Shown: positions 987 through 50,123 of the stretch, piece after piece
Layout of the letters: each line of letters begins with the position of its first letter
Position numbering within the stretch: position 1 is the first letter of the stretch
Made by a program: the position numbers and the translations under genes
The notes under the pieces: model-generated
Told to the model about the DNA's origin: nothing
Database searches by the model: none
Seen by the model: the letters and a program-made list of their open reading frames with translations, nothing else
Origin: a virus
Strand: one strand, 5' to 3'
Virus record (IMG/VR): IMGVR_UViG_3300028844_006574
Coordinates: 27,376-91,375 of that record
DNA: 64,000 nucleotides

Positions 987-3900
987 ATGCCAGAACAAGA
1001 AACACAGACAGAACCGGTATTACCAGATTTCTCCCTGCTCAGAAAACCCCTAGCTGATCTATCTACATCTATACAAGGATTAGCTTCTACAATTGAAGGT
1101 GTTAAAAAAGCATTGTCCGGAATCAAAAATATTGAACCTAGCAAGATCAAAGAAGGTATTGATAACAAAATAACTCAACAACCATCAAATATATCCGGTA
1201 ATGTACAACAAATCACTCCACCCTCTCAAAACAATACTTACATTAATGAATCAACATCTAATAATGTAAATACAACTAATGAACCATCTGCTCCCCCACC
1301 ACCTCAACCAATAGTTCCAGATGATGTTGTACAAGAAGTGATGTCCTCCGACCCGGTACAACCCGAGACGACGAACATTACTGAAAACAACAATCAAACA
1401 ACAAACAACAATACACAGACATATCAGTCTACAAACAACAACGCTCAAAATCCATGGACCACGTTGTATAAAAACAACGAGCAAACCACAAACAACAACG
1501 AGCAACCCGCAAACAACACCCCGAAAAAATCATTGATATCTAATATCTTGAGTGGTGTCAAGAATAGTTATGAAAACATACAATACCGCCGGGAGAACAT
1601 GGGAGAAACGTTTTTACAATCAACTCTACATGAAGCTAAAGACCGAGCTGTACAAGCAAAGGACGGTACGGTCTCCGGCTTTAAAAAAGCTAAAGATGTA
1701 ACTATTGAATCTAAAAATAGTTTCACACAAGGATTAAAAGCCGGTAATACCGGAGAAGGTGCCCCGAACGATTCGCTAGCTGCTAGAACTGGCCGAGAGC
1801 TAGGCGATGCGTGGAAAGAACAGAGAGACATGGACACACCGCTGTCACGTGCTGTTGATGCGTTCAAAGCCTTGAAGCAAGGAAACTTTAAAGATGCAAT
1901 AGGTAAAGCTGCTAGCTCTTTTGGAGGTTATGTAATGGCCAAAGAGAACCGAGAAGAGAATGAAAAGTATCAACGAGATTTTGGTGTTGAAGGTTATACC
2001 CCTGCTAAAACTCTCAAACTCAATGAAATGGCAGAGGATCAAGCCAAAGAGAGGCAGGAACTAGTCGACCAAATTCGCAAAGAAAAAAACAGTGTAATAA
2101 AAACACAGACAATTGAAGAACTCAAACAATTTGACAAAGAGTATGGTGAAAAAATGGGGGTTAGTTCTTCACAAGAACAAACAACAAACAACAATAACAC
2201 GCCAACCTCAGATGATAACAATTCAAAAATTTCAGAAAATATATCAACAGAGAATGTTGAACGAATCAAAGAAGCAACTGACCCTCAATTTCCAAAACCA
2301 AACAGCCCGCATGCCTCCGAGTATATTGAGACCGCTGGTGAGAACATAAACAAAGGAGTAGATCAATTAAAACAAAAAAGTGAACAATTTGCTGAAAATA
2401 TAAAATCTCTCCAACCTGTAGACAACAGTCAATCTAACATAGTTAACTTTCCAACACAACAAAACACACAACAAACTACAAACACAACAACACCAGCAGC
2501 ACCAGCTGCTAACAGCACAACCGCATCTGGTGAAAGTCAACGACAAGCTAAAGAATATGGTCCAGAAAAGGTTGAAATAGTCAACTTCAAAGAACTAGCC
2601 GAAGAGATTAGCGAGCTGATGGCCGGTAAGCTTGGAGACAAGATGAAAGGTGGGGTAATGTCTGGTGGTGGTTCTAGTGACGATGGTGACGATGGTGGTG
2701 GACTGCTAGACATGTTAGGGTTTGGGGCCAGTGCCGGTCTAGGAGGCGGCAGCGGTAAGGACAAAAACAAGAACAAGAACAAGACCAAGACCAAGGGACC
2801 TAAAGGTAAAAAACCTGGTCTGTTTAAACGAATCGGTTCAACAGTAGGTAAATTCATACCCAAAGGTAAAAATCTACTCAAAATTGGCGGAGTGGCTGCT
2901 GCAGCTGTAGGTACAAAACTTGGATATGACAAACTAACTCAGCCAGACACTCCAGATAAACCTAAAAAACCAGAAAAACCTGCTAAAACAACTTCAAAAC
3001 AGGTGAAACCAGCACCTAAACCAGGAAGTCCGGTTACAGATGCAGTAAAGACAACACCTAAACCAGACACACCAAAAACAACCACAAAAGCACCACCAAA
3101 ACCCAAGCCAAAACCAAAACCCAAGCCAAAACCAAAAGCTGGGTTCTTCAGTAGCATGTGGAGCAAGACTAAAAAACTCGCTAGTAAAATACCTGGAGCA
3201 GATACTGTCAAGAGTGTTGCCGGAGGAATTACTAGCGCAGTGAAGGACCCTATAGGGACTGCAAAAAAGGCTGTGAAGGGTGTTGTATCAACTGGTAAAA
3301 AAGCAATTTCTGCAGTCAAATCAGGAGTAGGAACCGCGGTAAAGTATGCAACCAATCCGAAACTAGCATTGAAAACATTGAAAGAAGCTGTAAAAACAAA
3401 TGCTAAAACAGCTGTTAAACAGATGATCAAAGTACCAATCATAAGTGCCCCGTTAGAGGCTCTTTTTGCTGGTTTTGAAATCAATGATATTTTAAGTAAT
3501 CAAGAGCTGTCACCAGCAGATAAAAAGAAGCAAACCGGTAGAGTTGTAGGTAACTCTATTGGTGGGTTGATGGGTGGTGCCTTAGCTGCGGTAGTACCAA
3601 CACTACTTACAGGTGGAGCAGCCGGTTTAGCTGCACCTATACTATACATGGGTGGAGATTATCTAGGTCGTATAGGTGCTGATGTGTTGATGAACAGTGT
3701 ACCTGATATTGAAGAAATATTAGGTGAGACAACTGGTAATGTATTTGGATTGGACTATGGAGACGAAGAGCAACCTACTACCGGTGAGCTAACTCCTGAA
3801 GACAAAAAAGAATTAGAAGGTCAAGTCAAGCCTGTTGATACCAAAGATGTACAAGCAGCACCAAAAGACAGTGAATCACCTGTCAAAGATGCAGTGAGTA

Positions 3901-6221
3901 GCATAACACCACCGGCAGTACCAGATAACAAAGTAACCGTTACACCAGAAGAAGTGGAATCTGCTGGTACAAACACACCAATCATGCAAGGTGTACCAGT
4001 TGCCGCCGGAGCTGCCGCGCTTGCTACCGCAGCCACTACTAAAAATACAAGCAAAACCTCTGGAGCTAAAATAACACCTGCTTCAGAATACAAAACCACC
4101 GGTAAAACACCAGTCAACAAACCTAAAACTGTAGCTGGTAAAGTAGCAGCCGCCGGTGCACTTGCTACTGGAGGAGTTTTAGCAGCATCTGCAATGTCGG
4201 ATGACACCCCACCAGCTAAAAAACTTCAAGCTGGTGCTCAAGCTACTGATACCGGAAAAACAACACCACCTCCACCAGCAGCACCTGCTAAAAAACTGCA
4301 AACCGGTGCCCAAGCTGCAGAAACCGGGGAAGTGACCGCAACTACAGCAACTACAGCTCCTTCACCAGCACCAATCCCTGCTAATGGTGTAACACCTGTA
4401 GCTAAAGACTTTACACACACAGGTAAACAAGCAATAGGGACTGACAGTTCTTCACCCGTACCAGCCAACCAATCTACTATAGGTCATAGCGAAGAAGGCC
4501 CAATGTATGTAAAACAGGTTCAAGATGATGATGGAGATGACCCAGATCACCCAGATGAAGAAGAAGAACAACCTGAAATTTCAGATATACAACCAGATAC
4601 TGGATCACAGGCGAAGGTACCTGGTATCATGTCCAAAGTGGCTGACTCTGCAGCTGCAGTTTACCCAGATTCCATGGTAGGTAGAGCTGTTGAAGGTGGA
4701 AAAACTCTACTAGGCAAAGCAAAACAAGCAAAAGACAAAGCCATGGCCACCGAAACTGGTCAAAAAGCCAAAGCAATCGGTACCAAAGCTTTAGATAAGA
4801 CCAAACAAGTAGGAGCAACTGCAATCGAAGGTGGTAAAACATTGGTAGGTAAAGCCATGGCTAGTGAAACTGGTCAAAAAGCCAAAGCAATCGGTGCAAA
4901 AGCATTAGACAAAGGAAAATATTTTGCCAGCCAAGCCGGTAGTATAGGTTCCGGATTGATAGACAAACTACCAGGTGCAGCAACATCTATGAAGTTGAAA
5001 GCTTCACAAGCCACAAAAGGTATCAAAGATAAAATTTCATCCCCCGGTCTAGGAAAACCAATCAAACCAGCCAAGCCTAAAAGTTTCTTGGGTAAACTCG
5101 CGAGTGGAGCAAAAAGTTTGGTCACAGAACACCCATTGGTTAAACTATTCCGGAAAAAGGAAGAGTCTCCTAGCGGTAAGTCAGTAAAACCAGCGGAATC
5201 ACAAGGCTTTTTGAGCAAAATAAAATCTGGTGTCAAAGGCATGTTCAACAAAACAAAAGAATCCGGAGGAAAATTCAAAGAAGGGATCAAAAAAGCAGAA
5301 CCGGGTGTAAAGGCAAAAGCTGCTCTTGAGAAGACCAAACAACTCGGCGCAACAGCAGTTCAAGGCGGGAAAACATTGTTAGGTAAAACAAAACAAAAAA
5401 TTACCGAAGCTTCGAACAGCGAAACTGGTCAAAAAGCCAAAGCGGTTGGTACCAAAGCGTTAGACAAAGGAAAGTACTTTGCTAGTCAAGCAGCCTCCAT
5501 GGGTATGAGTTTAGCTGGAAAAGCCAAACAAAAAGCCGCGGAAAAAATCCCGGGTATGTTGACATCTGGTAAAGCTGCAGCAGCTAAAGCTGCTGGTAGC
5601 GTTGCCGCCACTGCGCGGTCATTACCAGGTGTGATGAAGAGCAAGTCACAAGCTCTGAAACAAACAATTGACACTAAAGCTAAAGAACCGAATAGCTTGC
5701 TCGGTGGAGCAGCCAAGTTTGCCAAAGCCGCTGGTGAAAAGACTGTGAGTATTAGTAAAAAAGTCGGTGCAAAAGCTGTCGCGGGCGGAAAAAACTTGGT
5801 GGATAAAGCCAAACAATCTAAAGACAGGGTAGTATCTGCAACTACAGGGGAGAGCTCAGATGGGGATACACCTAAAAACAGACTCTCTGGTATGATGGGT
5901 GCAGCTAAGGATAAATCCAAAGACCTTTTAAAAAATGCAATACCAGTGTCTCAAAAGATGGGTTCAAAAGCACTGGCGGGTGCAGCGATAATGGGTCAAC
6001 GTTCCAAACAATTTATTGAAAAATTAGGCGAAAAGGAAATAGAAAAAGAAAAACAAGAGAAGGAACAAGCAGCTGGCGGTGGTACATCCATAATAAGCAA
6101 CAGTAGTAGCAGCAGCAATAGTACCACAATCAATCGATTCGATACAGATGTTGTGAGCAAATGGAGAAGCCAGTATGTTGATGACCAACACCGCCCGGGT
6201 CACTATTCGATGTACAGCTGA
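987..6221 (+). CDS. Giant tape-measure-type tail protein
   Basis: At 1744 aa this is the longest gene in the window. It lies between a gp26-like hub gene and a gp48/54-like gene, where T4 has gene 29 (tape measure). The N-terminal third is Asn/Gln/Thr-rich and looks disordered. A Gly/Asp-rich stretch and a Lys/Asn run follow near residues 560-605, and a repeated Lys-Pro run near 705-718. A Gly/Ala-rich hydrophobic segment of about 45 residues lies near 852-897. Residues about 1232-1610 carry diverged repeats built from GGKTLLGKAKQ-like and TGQKAKAIG-plus-KALDK units. Hydrophobic Gly/Ala stretches in a huge helical, Lys/Ala-rich protein fit a tape measure, which sets tail length and is passed into the cell. 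T4 gp29 is only about 590 aa. It could instead be a fusion of tape measure with another internal tail protein. The end reads SMYS, with no visible enzyme domain. Confidence 0.6.
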   Translation: MPEQETQTEPVLPDFSLLRKPLADLSTSIQGLASTIEGVKKALSGIKNIEPSKIKEGIDNKITQQPSNISGNVQQITPPSQNNTYINESTSNNVNTTNEPSAPPPPQPIVPDDVVQEVMSSDPVQPETTNITENNNQTTNNNTQTYQSTNNNAQNPWTTLYKNNEQTTNNNEQPANNTPKKSLISNILSGVKNSYENIQYRRENMGETFLQSTLHEAKDRAVQAKDGTVSGFKKAKDVTIESKNSFTQGLKAGNTGEGAPNDSLAARTGRELGDAWKEQRDMDTPLSRAVDAFKALKQGNFKDAIGKAASSFGGYVMAKENREENEKYQRDFGVEGYTPAKTLKLNEMAEDQAKERQELVDQIRKEKNSVIKTQTIEELKQFDKEYGEKMGVSSSQEQTTNNNNTPTSDDNNSKISENISTENVERIKEATDPQFPKPNSPHASEYIETAGENINKGVDQLKQKSEQFAENIKSLQPVDNSQSNIVNFPTQQNTQQTTNTTTPAAPAANSTTASGESQRQAKEYGPEKVEIVNFKELAEEISELMAGKLGDKMKGGVMSGGGSSDDGDDGGGLLDMLGFGASAGLGGGSGKDKNKNKNKTKTKGPKGKKPGLFKRIGSTVGKFIPKGKNLLKIGGVAAAAVGTKLGYDKLTQPDTPDKPKKPEKPAKTTSKQVKPAPKPGSPVTDAVKTTPKPDTPKTTTKAPPKPKPKPKPKPKPKAGFFSSMWSKTKKLASKIPGADTVKSVAGGITSAVKDPIGTAKKAVKGVVSTGKKAISAVKSGVGTAVKYATNPKLALKTLKEAVKTNAKTAVKQMIKVPIISAPLEALFAGFEINDILSNQELSPADKKKQTGRVVGNSIGGLMGGALAAVVPTLLTGGAAGLAAPILYMGGDYLGRIGADVLMNSVPDIEEILGETTGNVFGLDYGDEEQPTTGELTPEDKKELEGQVKPVDTKDVQAAPKDSESPVKDAVSSITPPAVPDNKVTVTPEEVESAGTNTPIMQGVPVAAGAAALATAATTKNTSKTSGAKITPASEYKTTGKTPVNKPKTVAGKVAAAGALATGGVLAASAMSDDTPPAKKLQAGAQATDTGKTTPPPPAAPAKKLQTGAQAAETGEVTATTATTAPSPAPIPANGVTPVAKDFTHTGKQAIGTDSSSPVPANQSTIGHSEEGPMYVKQVQDDDGDDPDHPDEEEEQPEISDIQPDTGSQAKVPGIMSKVADSAAAVYPDSMVGRAVEGGKTLLGKAKQAKDKAMATETGQKAKAIGTKALDKTKQVGATAIEGGKTLVGKAMASETGQKAKAIGAKALDKGKYFASQAGSIGSGLIDKLPGAATSMKLKASQATKGIKDKISSPGLGKPIKPAKPKSFLGKLASGAKSLVTEHPLVKLFRKKEESPSGKSVKPAESQGFLSKIKSGVKGMFNKTKESGGKFKEGIKKAEPGVKAKAALEKTKQLGATAVQGGKTLLGKTKQKITEASNSETGQKAKAVGTKALDKGKYFASQAASMGMSLAGKAKQKAAEKIPGMLTSGKAAAAKAAGSVAATARSLPGVMKSKSQALKQTIDTKAKEPNSLLGGAAKFAKAAGEKTVSISKKVGAKAVAGGKNLVDKAKQSKDRVVSATTGESSDGDTPKNRLSGMMGAAKDKSKDLLKNAIPVSQKMGSKALAGAAIMGQRSKQFIEKLGEKEIEKEKQEKEQAAGGGTSIISNSSSSSNSTTINRFDTDVVSKWRSQYVDDQHRPGHYSMYS
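4680..5815 (+). repeat. Degenerate internal repeats in the tape-measure gene
   Basis: The coding sequence repeats two kinds of unit. GGKTLLGKAKQ-like units occur near 4695, 4830, 5365 and 5790. ETGQKAKAIG-plus-KALDK units begin near 4752, 4865 and 5420. The copies near 4752 and 4865 are almost identical in DNA over about 30 nt, so they arose by fairly recent duplication. Confidence 0.7.
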
Positions 6222-41121: not shown

Positions 41122-41152
41122 AGCACCAGTCTTAACCGACTGGTGCTTTTTT
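41122..41152 (+). terminator. Strong intrinsic terminator after gp23
   Basis: A perfect 10-bp stem, AGCACCAGTC with GACTGGTGCT, with a 6-nt loop is followed by TTTTTT. The stem overlaps the end of the opposite-strand Clp gene, whose stop codon lies in the loop. Confidence 0.9.
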
Positions 41153-43570
41153 ATGTTCAATTTTAACAGAGTCTTGATCAACCAGAGCTGAAATTTCGAC
41201 CGGTCGTCCATGTTCCAACAAGAATTTAGCTAGTGGTGTTTGCACTTTAGATTGAATAATTCTTCTCAATGGCCGGGCTCCATATTTTTTATCAAACCCT
41301 TGCTCCAGTAAAAGGTTCTTGACTTGAGTGGATATGCTCAATTTAACTTGCTGTAGTTCCATCCGGTCGGTAAACTTTTTCAATTCGTTATTCAATATAC
41401 GTTTACACGTCTCCTGATTGAGACTGTTGAACATGACTATCTCATCCAATCTATTGATAAACTCAGGTCTCAAGTGGCTCTGTAGCTGCTTTTTAATGTT
41501 GTCCAGGTTTTGTTCATCAGTACTACCGAACCCTACAACATGATTATGCTGCATGCGATCGGCTCCGATATTGGTGGTTAACAATATCACACAATTTCTA
41601 AAATTGATACTCACTCCCCGGCTATCTGTCAATTGACCTTCATCTAAAAGTTGTAATAGTAACTGCATCACATCCGGATGTGCCTTTTCAATCTCATCAA
41701 ACAGTACAACACTGTATGGTTCTTGTCTGACACTTTCAGTCAATTGCCCACCTTCACCGTAACCTACATAACCAGGAGGACTGCCAATCAACTTGCTCAC
41801 GGAATGTGCTTCCATTAACTCACTCATATCCACCCGGATCATGTTAGTTTCATCACCATAAACAAATTTAGCAAGTTGTTTAGCTAGATAAGTTTTACCA
41901 ACACCTGTTGGACCCATCAACAAAAATGACCCCACCGGTCTCTCCGGGTCTGATACATCCATTCTGCTCCGAATGATACTGTCTGAAATCACTTCAACTG
42001 CTTGGTCTTGACCTAGAATATATTTTTTAAGATTACGTTCTAGACCTACCAATTTTTTAGACTCACTCCTCTTCAAATGCTCCAACGGAACACCACACCA
42101 GCTGCTGACTGTTGATCGAATATGCTGCTCTGTTATTTCCAAAGTCTTTTGTTTATTCAAACTTGACTTGACCGCCTTGGTTCGTTGAGACTTGAACTTT
42201 TTCTCAGCACCTCGAAATGTAGCTGCCGCTATAAAATCATCATTTGTCAAATGTTCCAGCGCCAGATCTGCACAGTCTTGTATTTTACCTTCTAGTTTGA
42301 CAACTCTAGAAGGTACTGTACCGTGCTTGAGCCTCAATCGGGCCGCGCATTCATCTAATACATCAATCGCTTTGTCTGGAAAGAATCTGTCTGTTATGTA
42401 CCTACCACTTAAATCAACCGCTAGTTGTACAGCTTCTTCTGTATATATGACGTTATGAAACTCCTCGTATTTGTGTTTCAAACCAGTTAATATATCGAAA
42501 GTCATTTCATAATCCGGTTCATCCACTACAATTTTTTGAAACCTACGCTCCAATGCTCCGTCAGATTCTATAAATTCACGATACTCATCAAATGTTGTAG
42601 TACCAATACAGCACAAACCACCTCTGCTCAATGCTGGTTTCAATATGTTGGCCGCGTCCATTGCTCCATCTGCATTACCAGCACCAACCAACATATGAAT
42701 CTCATCAATAAACACAACCGTATCTTTCAATTGCATCAAATCATCCATCACCTGTTTCATACGTTCTTCGAACTGACCACGATATTTGGTCCCCGCGACC
42801 ATCAGAGACAAATCCAAATTATAAATTTGCTTGTTTTTGAGTTGTAATGGAGCTGTACCCGCTGCAATCATGTTGCACAAACCTTCAACAACGGCTGTTT
42901 TACCCACACCCGGTTCCCCTACAAGTACTGGATTATTCTTTTGTCTTCTGCACAACACTTGCATCACTCGTTCAATCTCCTGCTCTCTCCCAACAACAGG
43001 ATCCAATAATCCTTCGTTGGATTGCAATGTCATGTTTACCGCAAATTGTTCTAGGGCTTCCCCTGGTTTCATCATCTGTTCGTTCCCACCTGTAGAAGCT
43101 CCTTGTTCTTGTTCTGATATGTCTTGTTGAGGGTTCAAATATTCTCTAAATGCTTGAGCTAACCCCGGTAGATCCACTCCGTTATCGTACATGAACGAAA
43201 ACGCTTGACACTCCGTATGACACACAATACCCAACATCAAGTGCTCGGTACCAATGAACGAGTGATTCATCTTGGCACTAACGTTTTTAGCCAGTCTGAG
43301 CACACGTTCTACCTCATCGCTCATGGGTATTTTAATATCTGTATCCTTAGCCCTAATCACTTGATTATCAAGATGGTAATGTAAGCGATCAGTTAATGTT
43401 TTTATATTGACACCCTGCATGACCAGTAGTTCATGTGCCAAGCTATCTTCTGTACATATTGTGGCCATCAACACGTGTAAAGTGGTGATTTGACCGTGAT
43501 CGTACTTACCAGCATACAGCTGCGTTTTCGCTAGCAAATCATTCGCTCGTGGTGAAAAGTTGTACATCAT
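41132..43570 (-). CDS. ClpC/ClpA-type AAA+ unfoldase
   Basis: The product has 812 aa. A Clp-N domain (residues about 4-145, FSPRANDLLAKTQLYA) is followed by two AAA+ modules with Walker A GEPGVGKTAVVEG (about 218) and GPTGVGKTYLAKQL (about 545). A short ClpC-type middle region lies near 410-495 and leads into a VSSWCGVPLEHL segment. After the second module's TTNIGADRM comes HNHVVGFGSTDE (residues about 676-680 hold VGFG), where ClpC has its [IVL]G[FL] ClpP-binding loop. It would unfold proteins and could feed them to host ClpP, or act alone in remodelling. No phage ClpP is seen here. It is the only gene in its transcript. Confidence 0.88.
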   Translation of the reverse strand: MMYNFSPRANDLLAKTQLYAGKYDHGQITTLHVLMATICTEDSLAHELLVMQGVNIKTLTDRLHYHLDNQVIRAKDTDIKIPMSDEVERVLRLAKNVSAKMNHSFIGTEHLMLGIVCHTECQAFSFMYDNGVDLPGLAQAFREYLNPQQDISEQEQGASTGGNEQMMKPGEALEQFAVNMTLQSNEGLLDPVVGREQEIERVMQVLCRRQKNNPVLVGEPGVGKTAVVEGLCNMIAAGTAPLQLKNKQIYNLDLSLMVAGTKYRGQFEERMKQVMDDLMQLKDTVVFIDEIHMLVGAGNADGAMDAANILKPALSRGGLCCIGTTTFDEYREFIESDGALERRFQKIVVDEPDYEMTFDILTGLKHKYEEFHNVIYTEEAVQLAVDLSGRYITDRFFPDKAIDVLDECAARLRLKHGTVPSRVVKLEGKIQDCADLALEHLTNDDFIAAATFRGAEKKFKSQRTKAVKSSLNKQKTLEITEQHIRSTVSSWCGVPLEHLKRSESKKLVGLERNLKKYILGQDQAVEVISDSIIRSRMDVSDPERPVGSFLLMGPTGVGKTYLAKQLAKFVYGDETNMIRVDMSELMEAHSVSKLIGSPPGYVGYGEGGQLTESVRQEPYSVVLFDEIEKAHPDVMQLLLQLLDEGQLTDSRGVSINFRNCVILLTTNIGADRMQHNHVVGFGSTDEQNLDNIKKQLQSHLRPEFINRLDEIVMFNSLNQETCKRILNNELKKFTDRMELQQVKLSISTQVKNLLLEQGFDKKYGARPLRRIIQSKVQTPLAKFLLEHGRPVEISALVDQDSVKIEHKKAPVG

Positions 43571-43599: not shown

Positions 43600-43630
43600 T
43601 TTCAAGCTTGATATGGCACTATTTATTATC

Positions 43631-43636
43631 TATAAT
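43631..43636 (+). promoter_or_regulatory. TATAAT box before the DpdA-like gene
   Basis: TATAAT ends 2 nt before ATG 43639 and 8 nt before ATG 43645. The spacing favours the second ATG as the true start. Confidence 0.4.
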
Positions 43637-43638
43637 AT

Positions 43639-44445
43639 ATGAATATGAAGATTGAAGTTTCCCATGAGAGTCCGTTGAGCTTATTAGAGCAGTCATTACA
43701 GTACAATGATTATTGTTATGCACTGGTACATTTGTTTGAACAATACCCAGAATATTTTAACTTTTTCAAGACAGCCAAGGATATACACGACAAATGTGTG
43801 TACCTGGACAACAGCATATTTGAACTAGGGAAAAGTTTTGACGGTGCAGAATACACCAAATGGATAGAGAAGCTGGAACCTAGTGTGTACATTGTACCAG
43901 ACACTCTTGAGGAGAGCAAAGACACGATCAAACAATTTTACACCTTCACTGGAGAGTACCAGGATCTTCCTGGTATCAAGATGGGTGTGGTACAAGGTAA
44001 GACGTATGACGATCTAGTCAGATGTTACAGTTTCATGGCTGAGTATGCAGATGTGGTAGCCATAAGTTTTGATTATTCATATTACCTATCTACTGGTATT
44101 GGTAATACCAAACTGGAACGCTACATGAACGGTCGTCGTAAATTCATCCAAGATCTGATAAATGAGAACAGATGGAACTGGAGCAAACCCGTACACTTGT
44201 TAGGGTGTAGCCTGGCACGAGAATTCAGTTACTACGTGGACAACAACATACACAACATAAGAAGCTGTGACACATCTAACCCGGTTGTAGCTGCCATGTT
44301 CAATTTGAAGTACAATGATGATTTCGGACTTAACGAGAAACCTAGTCAGAAACTAGCTGATATGTTAGAAGCTAATCTAGATGACAATCAGCAAGAGATA
44401 CTTGAATACAATTTGAAAATGTTCAAGAAGATACTGCGAAGATAA
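43639..44445 (+). CDS. dpdA: DpdA-like DNA guanine transglycosylase (TGT family)
   Basis: The product has 268 aa (266 from the second ATG, residue numbers below). It reads as a phage member of the tRNA-guanine transglycosylase superfamily: VYLDNSIFELG with Asp55, YIVPDTLEES, MGVVQGKTYDD (VVQG at 115-118, the TGT VQG loop), VVAISFD, HLLGCSLAREF (184-194, like the TGT H-L-x-G strand) and IRSCDTSNPVVA with Asp209 in the place of a catalytic aspartate. DpdA enzymes exchange guanine in DNA for a 7-deazaguanine such as preQ0 or preQ1. QueF and a formyltransferase nearby support a DNA-base role over tRNA queuosine. A short tRNA-TGT paralogue remains an alternative. Confidence 0.8.
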   Translation: MNMKIEVSHESPLSLLEQSLQYNDYCYALVHLFEQYPEYFNFFKTAKDIHDKCVYLDNSIFELGKSFDGAEYTKWIEKLEPSVYIVPDTLEESKDTIKQFYTFTGEYQDLPGIKMGVVQGKTYDDLVRCYSFMAEYADVVAISFDYSYYLSTGIGNTKLERYMNGRRKFIQDLINENRWNWSKPVHLLGCSLAREFSYYVDNNIHNIRSCDTSNPVVAAMFNLKYNDDFGLNEKPSQKLADMLEANLDDNQQEILEYNLKMFKKILRR

Positions 44446-44448
44446 ATA
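44441..44448 (+). promoter_or_regulatory. Late promoter box overlapping the dpdA stop, 5 nt before the formyltransferase
   Basis: GATAAATA contains the dpdA stop TAA and ends 5 nt before ATG 44454. The formyltransferase can therefore be made late, independently of dpdA. Confidence 0.55.
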
Positions 44449-44453
44449 ATTAA

Positions 44454-44990
44454 ATGATAGATGGTAGAGAATGGATCGCGTTGTTCAGTCACACTGGTTC
44501 AGAGATAGCAAACATTACTAATAAGCTCGGGTTCGGTCCCGACCGGGTGATAACAAACAAAATGGGTGTGGTGCACCGAGACTTGAATCATTGCACAAGA
44601 ACACGATCCAAACCAGACGTGCAAGACTATCAACTATTATTTGCTGATAAAGAACCGATCATAACCTTGCACGGCTGGATGAGAATCATTCCTGGTTCTA
44701 TATGTAAAGAGTATGATATATACAACCTGCACCCTGGTCTTATAACACAATACCCTGAGCTCAAAGGCAAAGATCCTCAAGAACGTGTATTCACCGCGTT
44801 GAACATACCACAATATGTCGGGTGTGTGATACATAGAGCGACTGATGAATTAGATTCCGGAGAGGTTATCATGTCACGTAGAGTGTTGAACACCTACCCT
44901 AACGTTCAAATATTATCTCATGCTTTACACGACATGGCTGGTGACATGTGGGTTGACTTTTTCGAGAGAAAATTATACAATAACGAATGA
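44454..44990 (+). CDS. Formyltransferase (PurN/Fmt fold)
   Basis: The product has 178 aa, about the size of PurN. The catalytic triad of formyltransferases is present: Asn91 and His93 in NLHPGLI, and Asp131 in CVIHRATDELDSGEVI (PurN Asn106, His108, Asp144). The N-terminal strand (IALFSHTGSEIANI) and LHGWMRIIP also fit. Such enzymes move a formyl group from 10-formyl-tetrahydrofolate to an amine. Sitting 8 nt after dpdA and near queF, it is best read as acting on preQ1 or preQ1-DNA, giving a 7-(formylamino)methyl group. A sugar-amine substrate for glycan synthesis is the main alternative. It overlaps the next gene by 4 nt. Confidence 0.85.
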   Translation: MIDGREWIALFSHTGSEIANITNKLGFGPDRVITNKMGVVHRDLNHCTRTRSKPDVQDYQLLFADKEPIITLHGWMRIIPGSICKEYDIYNLHPGLITQYPELKGKDPQERVFTALNIPQYVGCVIHRATDELDSGEVIMSRRVLNTYPNVQILSHALHDMAGDMWVDFFERKLYNNE

Positions 44991-45256
44991 ACAATTGGGG
45001 ATTGAGACCAGTGAAAACACCTGACGGGTTGTACATCCGAGAGGTATATTACAACAACGACGGGACTATATGTGATATAGAGATGCAGATAAAGCATGAA
45101 TATGACCCGGATCCACAGACAGTGATAAACCGACTCAAACCGTATTACCGGTACATTGAACAGATGAAACAATACGACCCGGATATTGTTAGATATGACC
45201 CTGACACAGACACCTTAAAAGATTGGATACCTGATGCTTCCATGGAAAAATCTTAA
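44987..45256 (+). CDS. Unknown protein, 89 aa
   Basis: The start overlaps the formyltransferase stop (ATGA). The sequence is acidic and Tyr/Asp-rich, with NRLKPYYRYIEQMKQYDPD in the middle and repeated D-P-D motifs near the end. No domain is recognised. Coupling to the modification genes is the only hint of role. Confidence 0.6.
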   Translation: MNNWGLRPVKTPDGLYIREVYYNNDGTICDIEMQIKHEYDPDPQTVINRLKPYYRYIEQMKQYDPDIVRYDPDTDTLKDWIPDASMEKS

Positions 45257-45437
45257 TTTCAAAGGCCGTATACTCGCTGTATGTGTTTTTATTAACATGT
45301 ATGTCTCTATTGTATATGTAACAACTGGTAGTTATGTAGCTATATTACCGGCATGCATGGCAATGTTATGCGGTATATCTACATACAACCCTAAATACCA
45401 GCAGCTTGACGCAACAGATTTGGAGAATAACAGGTGA
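45234..45437 (+). CDS. Small membrane protein, 67 aa
   Basis: Two hydrophobic segments are visible: ILAVCVFINMYVSIVYV (about residues 13-29) and SYVAILPACMAMLCGI (about 33-48). A short polar tail follows. It overlaps the genes on both sides (23 and 4 nt). It resembles no family that I recognise. Confidence 0.5.
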   Translation: MLPWKNLNFKGRILAVCVFINMYVSIVYVTTGSYVAILPACMAMLCGISTYNPKYQQLDATDLENNR

Positions 45438-46300
45438 ATATCAATTTAGAATTTGACATAGTAATTTGTGTAGGTCCGAAGGATTCGGAGAATATCCACG
45501 CGCAAATAGAATATACTAAAAATAACATTGTAGGTTACAGAAACATTTATTTGGTCACTCCGATTGAAAATTTGAGAATTGATAATTGTACTACAGTAAA
45601 TGAAAATAGTTTCCCATTCGGATTGGCTGACTGTCAAAATAGATACATACTGTCAGAAAAAGACAAAGAAAGAGGAGAAGAAAGCCGCGCTGGTTGGTAC
45701 TTACAACAATTACTAAAACTATACGCCGGTATTTGCATTCCAAATATTCTCGATAGATGGTTAGTAATTGATGCAGACACATATTTTTTAAAACCAACTA
45801 CCTTTATAGAAAATGCCAAGTGCTTGTATAACACAGGTTACCGATCCACATCCGCGATATGTGGTTTCCAATACCATAGACCATACTTCGCGCATATGGG
45901 AAAGCTTGGAATAGGGTTGAAACGGTATGATAAAAATATATCTGGAATATGCCATCATATGATGTTTGAAACAAAATATGTCAAAGAGATATTGACCCGT
46001 GTAGAGAATATTTTTAATGAAAATTTCTATACTGTTTTTCTAAATAATATAGACAGTAAGCAATTATCCGGTGCATCTGAATATGAAATTTATTTTAACT
46101 ATATGTTGATAAACCATCCAGATAAAATAAAAATTAGAAACCTACAATGGAGTAACATAGGTATAAGAGACTGGGATTACCTCTCACTCGACAAGCCCAC
46201 TACCATACCACCTGAATGGGCTGATCTTACACTCAAGAGTGAAATAAACTACGATTATGTTTCTTGGCATCGCTGGGGACGCCGTAAAAAACTCGACTGA
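45434..46300 (+). CDS. Glycosyltransferase-like protein, DUF6492-type
   Basis: The product has 288 aa and starts with GTG at 45434, overlapping the previous stop. It has a nucleotide-sugar-type start (EFDIVICVGPKD), IYLVTPIENLRI, ESRAGWYLQQLLKLYAG and WLVIDADTYFLKP, with DAD at about residues 116-118 as the metal site. This combination is that of the DUF6492 family of putative glycosyltransferases, found in capsule and O-antigen clusters. No membrane segment is seen. Its acceptor is unknown. The gene is more A/T-rich than the neighbours but still carries the CCGG sites typical of this genome. Confidence 0.7.
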   Translation: MNINLEFDIVICVGPKDSENIHAQIEYTKNNIVGYRNIYLVTPIENLRIDNCTTVNENSFPFGLADCQNRYILSEKDKERGEESRAGWYLQQLLKLYAGICIPNILDRWLVIDADTYFLKPTTFIENAKCLYNTGYRSTSAICGFQYHRPYFAHMGKLGIGLKRYDKNISGICHHMMFETKYVKEILTRVENIFNENFYTVFLNNIDSKQLSGASEYEIYFNYMLINHPDKIKIRNLQWSNIGIRDWDYLSLDKPTTIPPEWADLTLKSEINYDYVSWHRWGRRKKLD

Positions 46301-46307
46301 AGTTAAT

Positions 46308-46661
46308 ATGAGTAACAATAGAAAATTTGAGACCGGCGCGCAGCGTGACACCGGTGATGGTAAACTAAGAATGTCTCTTGTACCGCAGCAAGAGCTTAAA
46401 CGTGTCATGAAGCGATATCTAGACGGGGCCGAAAAATATGGTGAGAACAACTGGATGAAAGGCATGCCCCTTAGCGTGTATTTTGACAGCGCTCATCGAC
46501 ATCTGGAGGCATGGTGGTGTGGTGAGGATTCCGAAGACCATGCTGCAGCGGTTGTGTGGAACATGTTATGTGCCATGTACACCGAGACAAGAGCTCATGA
46601 GTTAGACGCTTTTCCTAAGGAAAAACAACTAGATGATAGAATAAAATACCCGAAAGATTAG
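46308..46661 (+). CDS. dATP/dGTP diphosphohydrolase-type protein
   Basis: The preferred start is ATG 46308 (MSNNRKFETGAQRDTG), giving 117 aa; the longer frame from 46257 would overlap the glycosyltransferase. The signature order GAQRDTGDGKLRMSLVP, YLDGAEKYGENNWMKGMP, DSAHRHLEAWWCGEDSEDH and AAVVWNMLC fits the family annotated as dATP/dGTP diphosphohydrolase (formerly DUF5664). This family is of the MazG kind, cutting dNTPs to dNMP and PPi. Relatives feed modified-base synthesis in other phages. The position between DpdA and QueF suggests nucleotide-pool remodelling, possibly of dGTP. Confidence 0.8.
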   Translation: MSNNRKFETGAQRDTGDGKLRMSLVPQQELKRVMKRYLDGAEKYGENNWMKGMPLSVYFDSAHRHLEAWWCGEDSEDHAAAVVWNMLCAMYTETRAHELDAFPKEKQLDDRIKYPKD

Positions 46662-46684
46662 TGGATAATATTTTAAGAATAATA

Positions 46685-46690
46685 TATAAT
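46685..46690 (+). promoter_or_regulatory. TATAAT box before the P-loop kinase/QueF genes
   Basis: TATAAT ends 8 nt before ATG 46699 in a very A/T-rich gap. Confidence 0.4.
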
Positions 46691-46698
46691 ATGTTGAT

Positions 46699-47256
46699 AT
46701 GTTAATAAGTTTCACAGGAGCTCAAAGTACAGGTAAAAGTACATTGTTGCGGCGCATGCTTCAACATGAAAAATTGAGAAAATGTACGTTTATCAAAGAA
46801 GTTACACGCAAAGTCGCCTCACAAGGTATCAAGATCAATGATGAAGGTGACAACATGACTCAACTGTTCATATTGAGCGAGCATTTACATAATCACCATT
46901 TGCCCGGTTGTGTAGTTTTGGATCGTTGTATTATAGATGGTTATATATACACCAAGTGGTTGCATGAACAGGATAAGGTGGAAGGATGGGTGCTGAAATA
47001 TGCTTGGGATTTACACAACGTGTTAGTTGACAAACTAGACGTTATATTCTACACGGAACCAGACGATATCAAATTGGAAGACGATGGCGAGCGTAGCACG
47101 TGTGAGAGTTTTAGAAACGATATATTGAGAATGTATGAAGACTATTTGACCTGGAACCCGAAAGTGAGAAAAAAACTGGTGAGGTTATCCGGTACTGTTG
47201 AAGAACGGTTTAAAACAATACAAACGACTTTTGAAAATTATGACAAAATTAGATAA
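46699..47256 (+). CDS. P-loop NTPase/kinase, NadR-like AAA_28 type
   Basis: The product has 185 aa. Walker A is GAQSTGKST (residues 7-15). A typical EVTRKVASQGIKIND switch region, CVVLDRCIIDGYIY as Walker B plus lid start, and DVIFYTEPDDIKLEDDGERS follow. This is the pattern of the NadR-type/AAA_28 kinases (nicotinamide-ribose or thymidylate-like kinases). The substrate cannot be told. Direct coupling to queF (17-nt overlap) suggests a nucleotide or cofactor role, for example NAD(P)H supply, but this is inference. Confidence 0.8.
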   Translation: MLISFTGAQSTGKSTLLRRMLQHEKLRKCTFIKEVTRKVASQGIKINDEGDNMTQLFILSEHLHNHHLPGCVVLDRCIIDGYIYTKWLHEQDKVEGWVLKYAWDLHNVLVDKLDVIFYTEPDDIKLEDDGERSTCESFRNDILRMYEDYLTWNPKVRKKLVRLSGTVEERFKTIQTTFENYDKIR

Positions 47257-48166
47257 TTCCCGTATCAGCAAGGTGTTAGGCCAGGTTGTTGATTATCCTG
47301 ATCAATACGACCCGTCAATCCTGGTCAAAGAACCCCGGAGCAACAACAGACAACATTTGGATTTACATGACGACAATTTACCGTTCGTAGGCTTTGACAC
47401 TTGGAACGCATATGAAGTGAGTACATTGACAAGCAAAGGCATGCCCGTTACAGGTGTGTTGAAAATCGTGTATCCCTGTGATAGTAAATTTATTGTGGAG
47501 AGCAAGAGTATCAAGTTGTACCTCAACTCATTCAACATGTTTAAAAACGGAGACACCCGGGAACAAGCTGTTTCGGACATGGTGTTAACCGTGACCAAGG
47601 ATTTGAGTGAACTGTTAGAGACCGATGTCAAAGCAAAGTTTTTGAATGATCATAACCGGGAAGACCCAAAACCGGTGTTTGGTGAGATGTATCACTGGAC
47701 GAGCCTCGAACATGATCTAGTTGACAAGGAGACTGTAGACAACATGCAATTGAATGTATATGAAGAGACTCCCGAGCTGCTCAAAATTGAAGGTATTGGA
47801 AACAACAAGCACCCTCATGTACAGGTGTTCAAATGCGGTTTACTCAAGAGCAACTGCCGGGTGACCAATCAACCGGACTGGGGTGATGTGTTTGTATATA
47901 TCATGGGTAAAAACCATGTTAACCCGGCGAGTATGTTAGAGTATATTATTTCATTCAGAAATGAGAATCACTTTCATGAAGAAATTTGTGAGACGGTATA
48001 CAAAAGATTGTATGAGTTGTTGAACCCGGATGAAATATGTGTGACGTGCTTGTATGCCCGAAGAGGTGGTATTGACATCAACCCCACAAGAGCTAATTTA
48101 CCGCATCTGTTACCGGAAAACTTGATAGACCCTGGTGTAGAACACTGTAAAACTCAAAAACAGTAG
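47240..48166 (+). CDS. queF: NADPH-dependent preQ0 reductase QueF, two-domain type
   Basis: The ATG at 47240 gives 308 aa, close to E. coli QueF (282), which the N-terminus follows: VDYPDQYDPSIL and DDNLPFVGFDTWNAYEVSTL. The QueF signature ESKSIKLYLNSFN is at residues 87-99. The catalytic region LLKSNCRVTNQPDWGD places Cys206 (thioimide nucleophile) and Asp213. FHEEICE (His246/Glu247) and YARRGGIDINPTR complete the active site. QueF reduces 7-cyano-7-deazaguanine (preQ0) to preQ1 with two NADPH. preQ0-making genes (FolE, QueD/E/C) are not in the window, so preQ0 must come from elsewhere in the phage or from the host. Confidence 0.95.
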   Translation: MTKLDNSRISKVLGQVVDYPDQYDPSILVKEPRSNNRQHLDLHDDNLPFVGFDTWNAYEVSTLTSKGMPVTGVLKIVYPCDSKFIVESKSIKLYLNSFNMFKNGDTREQAVSDMVLTVTKDLSELLETDVKAKFLNDHNREDPKPVFGEMYHWTSLEHDLVDKETVDNMQLNVYEETPELLKIEGIGNNKHPHVQVFKCGLLKSNCRVTNQPDWGDVFVYIMGKNHVNPASMLEYIISFRNENHFHEEICETVYKRLYELLNPDEICVTCLYARRGGIDINPTRANLPHLLPENLIDPGVEHCKTQKQ

Positions 48167-48852: not shown

Positions 48853-49077
48853 ATGACCGATTACATAAATGGTACCAAGTTCGTTGTTACAGTAAAGAAC
48901 AAATGGACTAACAGTGAGCGTAGAGTTATAGTGAGCAAATACAATGATGTTCAACTAGCTCATAAGTATGCATACTACCAGCATACTTCGAACCTTGAAG
49001 ATATTGTTAGTATCGTGAACCCTAGAAAACAAACAGTATTCACACTCCGCGGAGGTTTTCGAAGACCCGGTAAATGA
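48853..49077 (+). CDS. Small unknown protein, 74 aa
   Basis: ATG 48853 (MTDYINGTKFVVTVKNKW) is preferred over 48835, which lies within the promoter region. It is basic, with a TKFVVTVKNKWTNSERRVIV strand pair and a helical HKYAYYQHTSNLEDIVSI segment, ending GGFRRPGK. It overlaps the next gene by 4 nt. The function is unknown. Confidence 0.55.
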   Translation: MTDYINGTKFVVTVKNKWTNSERRVIVSKYNDVQLAHKYAYYQHTSNLEDIVSIVNPRKQTVFTLRGGFRRPGK

Positions 49078-50123
49078 GCGCTACAGGGTATGTAGTGTTT
49101 TGTGAAGATAAATACTACTTGTTATGGCAACTAGAGTTGTTAATCGAATCTATAACAAACCGTGCTGGTGTACATGAAAAAGACATAGTAGTATTATATG
49201 CAGACCCTAGCTATCACCACAGGAGTGTAGAGTGGGGACAATCACCATACTTGAAAAGTTTGATGAAACATCACCATGATGTAAAATTTTATCCTGTACA
49301 AAACTGGGGCCGGCGAAACTGGTATTTTCGTTTTGAAGATAATAAAACTTGGCACCCTAAACAGTACCCGGGTATAAACAAATGGCTGAGTTTATGTGAA
49401 GCAGCCAACGCCGGTTGGTTAGATGATTTTACTGAAGTTGTACTTTTAGAACAAGATTTGTGGTTCAGCGGCAATTTTCCAAAATTAGGTCATGGAAATT
49501 GTGTTACAGCCAATTGGTTGTGTGACAGATACAACGCGTTTGAGGTGAATGACAAAACAGATGATATGAACACCCCTGGATTCGACTTGGATGATATCAT
49601 GAAGCTGTGCAAAGTACCATCGTCTCATCGGAAAAGATGGACCTCCGGAGCCATTGTGTTCAAATTTGTCACCAAGCAACTAGTACAAGCCAAGTTTTTA
49701 AATGCACTGGTCAATTACAACCAATTGCTGATGACACTAGGTGAACTAGCACTACCACAGGGCGCTCGTCATGAAACAGACATGGTCGCTCCATCTTTGG
49801 CCATGGCCCACTGTGGTATGCATTGTAGAACGGTTGAGGATTTACAATGGAAATCAGACGTTTGGACCTGGCACCAAAAACCACCAGACAATGTAGTTGT
49901 TCATTACGGTTGGGACTTCGCTGCATACCCACATTTGAACTCAACGTTTAGTAAATTTAAATATACTAACAAAGGTCCATGGACAGACAAAGAGGTTTTG
50001 ATGGCAGAATATAATGACCTTGCATTTGATTGGATTAAATCATTATACAACGATATATTCAAAATAGGTGAAAAAAACATACAAAGGGTCTGCGATAGAC
50101 AGGTTTATCTCCCAGTTATATGA
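49074..50123 (+). CDS. Putative glycosyltransferase, GT-A-like
   Basis: The product has 349 aa. YVVFCEDKYYLLWQLELLIES and DIVVLYADPSYHH form a nucleotide-sugar-like N-terminus. EVVLLEQDLWFSG supplies an ExD-type metal site (about residue 122-131) in place of DxD. Further on, TSGAIVFKF and a HETDMVAPSLAMAHCGM segment fit an acceptor/product loop, and HYGWDFAAYPHLNS is near the end. It is not assigned to a CAZy family by eye. It starts inside the previous stop and its own stop overlaps the following gene. Confidence 0.6.
   Translation: MSATGYVVFCEDKYYLLWQLELLIESITNRAGVHEKDIVVLYADPSYHHRSVEWGQSPYLKSLMKHHHDVKFYPVQNWGRRNWYFRFEDNKTWHPKQYPGINKWLSLCEAANAGWLDDFTEVVLLEQDLWFSGNFPKLGHGNCVTANWLCDRYNAFEVNDKTDDMNTPGFDLDDIMKLCKVPSSHRKRWTSGAIVFKFVTKQLVQAKFLNALVNYNQLLMTLGELALPQGARHETDMVAPSLAMAHCGMHCRTVEDLQWKSDVWTWHQKPPDNVVVHYGWDFAAYPHLNSTFSKFKYTNKGPWTDKEVLMAEYNDLAFDWIKSLYNDIFKIGEKNIQRVCDRQVYLPVI

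Follow-up and report, generated by a model that had tools for sequence, protein, structure and literature searches.

A DpdA3-type gene cassette with a nucleotide kinase partner probably directs formylated 7-deazaguanine modification of phage DNA

Described deazaguanine systems and the layout of the locus

Enzymes of the TGT fold insert deazaguanine into phage DNA in the DpdA1 (CAjan, 9g) and DpdA2 (KVP40/nt-1) systems, where replacement is partial in the phages measured (PMC6884629), and DpdA relatives occur in phages with deazaguanine in their DNA (PMC8713573, PMC6884629). In phage CAjan, DpdA is required for insertion and the modification protects the DNA (PMC6884629). Firehammervirus DNA is cited in PMC6884629 as carrying a deazaguanine, dADG. 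The Campylobacter firehammerviruses (CP220, CP21) encode a homolog of the DpdA3 protein described here (42-44% identity) adjoining the same kinase, and FolE, QueD and QueC are present in their genome. However, an HD-hydrolase/AAA_33 fusion lies upstream of their dpdA, and neither QueF nor a formyltransferase lies beside it, in keeping with dADG as the base. An N-formyl-preQ1 base class has reportedly been described as well, by Cui et al. in 2023, in phages whose DpdN formyltransferase is paired with DpdA and QueF as it is here; the kinase and hydrolase partners are said not to be discussed in that work.

The window analyzed here is a 64,000-nt stretch of a phage known only from metagenomes (IMG/VR record IMGVR_UViG_3300028844_006574). 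Between 43639 and 48166 it carries, all on the + strand, dpdA, a formyltransferase, a dATP/dGTP diphosphohydrolase, a P-loop kinase and queF (Table 1). These genes had been proposed in a sequence-only reading as a candidate DNA-hypermodification cluster, and the open reading frames and Pfam matches bore out each of them in that order, including the VVQG, HLLGC and CDTSNP motifs of the TGT-like protein, the 8-nt spacing to the formyltransferase, the hydrolase family and the completeness of QueF. The fixed partnership of the kinase and the formyltransferase, and a QueC gene outside the window, are additions to that reading. The distinct viral contigs that share this cassette order number well over 100, far beyond chance. 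Flavobacterium phage immuto (vB_FspM_immuto_2-6A, NC_055915) likewise has the order dpdA, formyltransferase, kinase, queF, with identities to the window of 46%, 42%, 32% and 45%, respectively. It differs in having a MazG-type hydrolase upstream of dpdA, whereas the window has a PF18909 protein between formyltransferase and kinase, and in having FolE, QueD and QueE adjacent and upstream, whereas these lie elsewhere in the lineage of the window's phage. The segment between formyltransferase and hydrolase is probably an insert outside the core cassette; its DUF6492 gene was found only in a near-identical sister (L008/L091) and was absent from an 86% relative (L009).

Table 1 Features of the cassette region in the window
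Feature	Coordinates	Strand	Size	Evidence
Host-type sigma-70-like promoter, TTGATA-N17-TATAAT	43608..43636	+		sequence
dpdA (DpdA3-type), TGT-fold guanine transglycosylase	43645..44445 (ORF opens 43639)	+	266 aa	phrog_19058 4e-54, fold, motifs
Formyltransferase (DpdN-like), predicted to formylate the preQ1 aminomethyl group	44454..44990	+	178 aa	PF00551 2e-10
Lineage-specific insert: small ORFs (44987-45256, 45234-45437) and DUF6492 protein (45434-46300)	44987..46300	+		
dATP/dGTP diphosphohydrolase-like protein	46308..46661 (probable start; ORF opens 46257)	+	117 aa	PF18909 5e-22
dNK/TMPK-like P-loop nucleoside or nucleotide kinase	46699..47256	+	185 aa	PF13521 9e-15
QueF, NADPH-dependent preQ0 nitrile reductase (to preQ1)	47240..48166	+	308 aa	PF14819 2e-32, PF14489 2e-23

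The transglycosylase, its promoter and its nucleotide-enzyme partners

A structural search with the AlphaFold (AF2) model of DpdA3 (pLDDT 94.6) returned TGTs as the top 33 PDB matches (best 2pot, E 1.8e-7), followed by bacterial DpdA (7ui4, E 4.5e-5); nt-1 DpdA2 was among the viral matches, and the predicted fold is a TGT-like TIM barrel. D55, D86, Q117-G118, HLLGC and D209 were invariant in all 41 homologs, the TGT nucleophile being assigned from motif order and not from superposition. DpdA3 thus belongs, as a short protein, to the TGT/DpdA fold, and it lacks the conserved zinc cysteines of tRNA TGTs. Grouping with tRNA TGTs, which would have spoken against a role in DNA, was not observed: besides the missing cysteines, neither a Pfam TGT match nor QueA was found in the window's contig, a 222-kb sister contig, immuto or CP220, while 14 of 14 control genomes matched the TGT model. 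The predicted link of DpdA3 to DpdA1 and DpdA2 rests on the modelled fold; hhalign of the DpdA3 profile against single DpdA1 and DpdA2 sequences gave no alignment, such single-sequence profiles being too thin. Net charge (-11 for DpdA3) is uninformative on DNA binding, because a DpdA2 is equally acidic (-16).

The start of dpdA is more likely at 43645 than at 43639, as homologs begin there and a promoter lies just ahead of it, with its -10 box reaching to 43636. With only 8 nt between this box and the ATG, the mRNA is predicted to be leaderless. A promoter with at most one mismatch occurred within 75 nt upstream at 36 of 68 non-redundant dpdA loci, compared with 0.5% of dinucleotide shuffles, and the distance from the -10 box to the ATG was 6 nt at 40 of these 68 loci. 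In a second, partly overlapping set it occurred at 37 of 80 loci, and for capsid genes, taken as a comparison, at 0 of 55 even with two mismatches allowed. The dpdA promoter is conserved, host-type and predicted to be leaderless, and it is presumably early. A late T4 promoter, TATAAATA, preceded dpdA at only 3 of 89 loci, and the window held five matches to it against six expected.

The kinase was a near-universal partner, being present at 67 of 69 dpdA loci and, in the reverse direction, at 56 of 56. It was retained in the CP220 and L053 types, where QueF is absent, which indicates that it tracks DpdA3 and not QueF; a role as a NadR-like supplier of NADPH for QueF is unlikely for the same reason. 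No homolog of it was found in the DpdA1/DpdA2 phages CAjan, 9g and KVP40/nt-1. Among 33 kinase homologs, Pfam assigned AAA_28 to all and dNK to three, and none matched a thymidylate kinase model despite the PHROG name thymidylate kinase. The AF2 model (pLDDT 90.3) best matched Mycoplasma deoxyadenosine kinase (2jat, E 5.6e-7, TM 0.72/0.71); the predicted fold is nearest to deoxynucleoside kinases and NadR, with TMPK further down, and is not that of a guanylate kinase. Phmmer searches of the kinase and hydrolase against the PDB gave nothing useful. The kinase superfamily also extends beyond the cassette: in Streptomyces Karimac-type phages a remote relative (~25%) occurs within an examined stretch of 24 kb that carries no annotated deazaguanine genes.

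The hydrolase lay between formyltransferase and kinase at all 67 loci that had all three, redundant loci included. The cassette hydrolases belong to different families (PF18909, MazG/PRA-PH, and HD in CP220), and dNTP pyrophosphohydrolases adjoined 48 of 100 formyl-type cassettes versus 3 of 58 others (Fisher p 5e-9, kinship ignored). In Cellulophaga phage phiST, a remote DpdA3-like protein found by fold is encoded beside another type of kinase (AAA_18) and a MazG protein.

QueF, preQ0 synthesis and the likely formylated base

QueF consists of tandem T-folds, with the ESKS motif, Cys206 and Asp213 noted at the outset all invariant in 20 homologs; to our knowledge, ESKS is absent from QueF-like amidinotransferases. 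TIGR03138 was still the best fit, at 245.6 bits (E 7e-73) versus an equivalog cut-off of 293.45. We propose from these signatures that the protein works like QueF and belongs to a phage branch of that family. A search for FolE, QueD, QueE and QueC, as the sequence-only reading had suggested, located QueC on the window's own contig, outside the window, and all four genes on the 222-kb sister contig (G001), while FolE, QueD and QueE were not on the 91-kb fragment itself. The sister's QueE was missed by a radical-SAM Pfam search and recovered from reading of the ORFs and PHROGs (phrog_2076, 5e-42). Directly 3' of QueC lies a stand-alone class II glutamine amidotransferase, so archaeosine (dG+) may be an additional product.

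The profile of the formyltransferase matched PurN structures (E 4e-15), and its N91-H93-D134 catalytic triad was invariant in 15 homologs. dpdA was present at all 54 loci found with the formyltransferase, and QueF in 94 of 100 distinct formyltransferase cassettes, a pattern that fits QueF being the source of the amine to be formylated. This membership in the cassette makes N-formyl-preQ1 the likeliest base, and the product is probably this base rather than bare preQ1.

Routes to the modified base

The locus is best explained as a DpdA3-type 7-deazaguanine DNA-hypermodification cassette, which in our judgment quite likely yields formylated deazaguanine DNA. The phage FolE, QueD, QueE and QueC would make preQ0, which QueF would reduce to preQ1 with NADPH, and DpdA3 would put the deazaguanine base in place of guanine. 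The formyltransferase, probably drawing on 10-formyl-tetrahydrofolate, would formylate the aminomethyl nitrogen of the free base, the nucleotide or the DNA, giving 2'-deoxy-7-(formylamino)methyl-7-deazaguanosine. On the nucleotide side, the kinase and, in cassettes that have one, the dNTP pyrophosphohydrolase would either supply a modified dNTP or recycle the guanine set free, and the resulting DNA would withstand host restriction enzymes. The original proposal that some guanines are replaced by preQ1 or a derivative is thus supported by the fold, the catalytic motifs, the relatives in deazaguanine phages, the QueF signature and the preQ0 pathway. 'Some' may even be all, since the firehammerviruses, the nearest characterized relatives, reportedly replace all dG according to Crippen et al. 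in 2019.

The kinase partner, the hydrolase association and the dpdA promoter make replacement at the nucleotide level a live alternative to exchange in finished DNA. In T4 (HMC), SPO1 (HMU) and Z-genome phages the base is replaced at this level, and they too encode a nucleotide kinase and a hydrolase of dNTPs with a base-altering enzyme, although in the window that enzyme is a transglycosylase, with a putative action on free nucleotides. The same product would then arise before replication: pyrophosphohydrolase would convert dGTP to dGMP, DpdA3 would swap the base on the nucleotide, and the kinase with host Ndk would produce a modified dNTP for the polymerase. Such a route is possible but tentative. 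It is favored by the kinase's persistence even without QueF and its fold nearest to deoxynucleoside kinases, by the recruitment of hydrolases from several families, by the pairing in phiST, by the small size of DpdA3 and its lack of a zinc site, and by the host-type, presumably early promoter. On the other hand, most of the distinct cassettes had no hydrolase in the flank examined, and the TGT and DpdA enzymes known to us all act on polynucleotides. Phosphates of dADG reportedly went undetected in the infected cells studied by Crippen et al. (in 2019), and Cui et al. (in 2023) are said to argue that insertion is post-replicative. That DpdA3 exchanges the base on free deoxynucleotides and not in DNA, making (formyl-)preQ1 deoxynucleoside triphosphate together with the kinase and pyrophosphohydrolase, is doubtful in our view. 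If true, it would be the first TGT-family enzyme known to us to act on mononucleotides, and the phage would replicate without dGTP-derived guanine, which would explain complete G replacement. Kinase and hydrolase might also, less probably than not, only recycle guanine freed by post-replicative exchange in DNA, together with a phosphoribosyltransferase and ribonucleotide reductase in some clusters. A phosphoribosyltransferase is indeed present in the immuto cluster and, in the L054/L070 type, adjoins ribonucleotide reductase, but it was found at 10 of 96 loci against a near-universal kinase, the kinase fold is not the one expected of a guanylate kinase, and a dNTP hydrolase would be no help in salvage.

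Two further readings concern the product itself. The end product could be bare dPreQ1 or dG+, with the formyltransferase serving as an auxiliary PurN gene of purine synthesis; it is labelled phosphoribosylglycinamide formyltransferase in immuto and in PHROGs, and the amidotransferase beside QueC would fit dG+. Its TIGR00639 (PurN) score of 37.4 bits versus the equivalog cut-off of 150.1, its occurrence exclusively with dpdA and mostly with QueF, and the omission of its N-terminal 26 residues from the best PurN structure match speak against this; a plain PurN role was rejected on the score and the co-occurrence, and the reading as a whole is improbable. Feeding or altering queuosine in host tRNA instead of DNA would suit preQ1, the normal substrate of bacterial TGT. 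It is nevertheless highly improbable, and was discarded, given the unmatched TGT and QueA models in the four genomes, the missing zinc site and the relatives in phages with deazaguanine in their DNA (PMC8713573, PMC6884629).

A swap of guanine for a deazaguanine in DNA is a known kind of anti-restriction disguise; what is surprising in the DpdA3 cassette is that a kinase for nucleotides accompanies it, in many cases along with an enzyme that destroys nucleotides. This association bears on the way in which every guanine is replaced in some phages, a question that three small enzymes would suffice to test. It is also a reason to rename phage proteins that are recorded as 'phosphoribosylglycinamide formyltransferase', 'thymidylate kinase' or 'hypothetical'. 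Formylated deazaguanine may occur commonly in the DNA of phage populations, and could mislead standard restriction, CRISPR or sequencing chemistry. Among 158 distinct DpdA3 proteins, 148 were accompanied by the kinase, 143 by QueF and 100 by the formyltransferase. The cassette is widespread in IMG/VR, with more than 500 contig stretches among the matches listed, many of which adjoin T4-like capsid genes.

Layout of the cassette and its transglycosylase

The window comprises bases 27376-91375 of a 91,375-base IMG/VR virus fragment that carries a T4-like capsid gene, Gp23 (PF07068, 8e-90). A plus-strand cassette opens with the genes of a TGT-like transglycosylase (DpdA3, gene dpdA) and a formyltransferase. 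Two small ORFs and a gene for a DUF6492 protein come next, then those for a dATP/dGTP diphosphohydrolase-like protein, a P-loop kinase and, last, QueF. The cassette has a ClpA-like gene on one side and a series of uncharacterised genes on the other. This is a real DpdA3-type deazaguanine cassette, one more example of a known system, and it is probably functional. Every motif and coordinate checked in the sequence-only reading of the cluster was correct; dpdA was present, its start being probably 43645 rather than 43639.

Coordinates of features in the window and, where marked, on the whole 91,375-base contig
Feature	Position	Strand	Remark
ClpA-like AAA+ unfoldase	41132-43570	-	phage-encoded, adjoins cassette
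Host-type promoter of dpdA	43608-43636
dpdA	43645-44445	+	TGT-fold transglycosylase
DUF6492 protein	45434-46300	+	glycosyltransferase-like by eye
Uncharacterised protein	49074-50123		glycosyltransferase-like by eye
QueC	contig 3472-4182		outside window; TIGR00364 above cut-off
QueC and amidotransferase pair	contig 3472-4865		class II glutamine amidotransferase, stand-alone
Third glycosyltransferase-like gene	contig 4868-5569		downstream of the pair

Homologues of the unfoldase adjoin the cassette in several other loci, and the DUF6492 protein has a counterpart only in the 99% sister of this phage.

No Pfam family matched DpdA3 above cut-off, and its PHROGs entry is of unknown function. Its relatives in annotated phages were a protein named DpdA in Flavobacterium phage immuto (46% identity), hypothetical proteins of Campylobacter firehammerviruses (42-44%) and, remotely, a Chryseobacterium phage protein (26%). 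The structure model (pLDDT 94.6, from a 41-sequence alignment) bore out the proposed DpdA-like identity, as PDB hits 1-33 were all tRNA-guanine transglycosylases (best E 1.8e-7, TM 0.66/0.52) and hit 34 was a bacterial DpdA, 7ui4. Matching viral models included an unannotated protein of Cellulophaga phage phiST (TM 0.86/0.88) and DpdA2 of Vibrio phage nt-1. Asp55, Asp86, Gln117-Gly118, the HLLGC motif and Asp209 were invariant; only two cysteine columns were highly conserved, so DpdA3 lacks the zinc site of tRNA TGTs.

Deazaguanine had been reported in Campylobacter phages, in which no DpdA was recognised at that time (Hutinet et al., PMC6884629). The firehammervirus homologue of DpdA3 would fill this gap. 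The DpdA3 subfamily was reportedly named by Cui et al. in 2023, after Hutinet et al. A search of ~85,000 bacterial and archaeal genomes pointed to no cellular home for DpdA3. Only four loci were found there (L212, from a Rhodobacteraceae bin, L213, L214 and L215), all on metagenome-assembled contigs and probably phage contamination.

Partner genes and the predicted product

QueF contained both halves with invariant ESKS, Cys and Asp residues, confirming the complete enzyme described earlier; this signature marks the nitrile reductase branch, not the amidinotransferase branch. The suggested check for FolE, QueD, QueE and QueC was borne out in part: QueC lies on the same contig, and none of the other three was present on the 91,375-base fragment. 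A 222-kb sister contig (DpdA 86%, QueF 74% and QueC 71% identical) encodes all four, with FolE, QueD and QueE ~18-24 kb upstream of QueC. Since the fragment's QueC is 3.5 kb from its left end, its own FolE, QueD and QueE would lie beyond that end. The amidotransferase directly following QueC recurs in several deazaguanine phages (also L003, L004, L099, L116 and L212); it may provide QueC with ammonia, or the two may constitute a split Gat-QueC (dG+).

Among the 69 dpdA loci followed by 3.5 kb or more of sequence, the partners were the kinase (67), QueF (63) and the formyltransferase (23); over 158 distinct DpdA3 proteins they numbered 148, 143 and 100, respectively. Searches anchored on the kinase recovered dpdA and QueF in 56/56 loci with flank, and those anchored on the formyltransferase recovered dpdA in 54/54 and all four genes in 52. 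Partner sequence distances were correlated as well (rho 0.53 for DpdA-kinase and 0.70 for DpdA-QueF; permuted maximum 0.10). A stray purine (PurN) gene would be another reading of the formyltransferase, which retains the N-H-D triad. However, it fell below the PurN cut-off, and the co-occurrence, including QueF in 94 of the 100 formyltransferase loci of the 158-protein set, places it with QueF and DpdA and rejects that reading. On the simplest view of its role, it N-formylates the aminomethyl group that QueF generates. The earlier proposal that preQ1 or a derivative replaces some guanines is thereby narrowed to N-formyl-preQ1 DNA, the most likely predicted product.

Kinases and hydrolases beside DpdA3

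The kinase belonged to AAA_28 in 33/33 homologues, and its model (pLDDT 90.3) was nearest to deoxyadenosine kinase, NadR, deoxynucleoside kinases and thymidylate kinases. Among annotated phages, only Campylobacter phages and immuto encoded it at >=30% identity. A role as NADPH supplier is unlikely, because the kinase is kept beside DpdA3 in loci lacking QueF (CP220, a Campylobacter firehammervirus, and the L053 type). In kinase-less cassettes (L102:7552-7914, L103, L104 and L105), a DUF3310 protein sits between the formyltransferase and QueF, where the kinase is otherwise found, and could be its functional substitute.

A hydrolase was nearby in 48/100 formyltransferase-bearing cassettes versus 3/58 others (p 5e-9, computed without kinship correction). 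PF18909 proteins are encoded after the formyltransferase and before the kinase. In immuto-like loci, the gene immediately ahead of dpdA encodes a MazG/PRA-PH protein, and CP220 has an HD/AAA_33 fusion, likewise upstream of dpdA. In phiST (L293:45600-49705), the unannotated, remote DpdA3-like gene forms a cluster with the genes for FolE, QueE and QueD, one for a MazG protein and one for an AAA_18 kinase unrelated to the cassette kinase. That the hydrolases and kinases differ while the transglycosylase stays the same suggests that such partners were recruited repeatedly. Phages with full nucleotide-level replacement (T4, SPO1 and Z-genome phages) encode a hydrolase and a kinase, the pair seen here beside DpdA3. 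Across these cassettes, a nucleotide kinase is a near-obligate partner and a dNTP hydrolase a frequent one.

Promoter and predicted timing of expression

A near-consensus sigma-70-type promoter (TTGAtA-N16-18-TATAAT) was located upstream of dpdA in 36/68 non-redundant loci versus 0.5% of shuffles, with mostly 6-8 nt between the end of the -10 box and the dpdA start codon. A second, partly overlapping locus set gave the same result, and the capsid genes of these loci had no such promoter within even two mismatches. The promoter and its spacing suggest that the cassette, though among structural genes, is probably transcribed by host polymerase in its unmodified form, giving a leaderless mRNA; it would then be expressed early. 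The match rate was also raised upstream of QueF (32/59), within the kinase gene.
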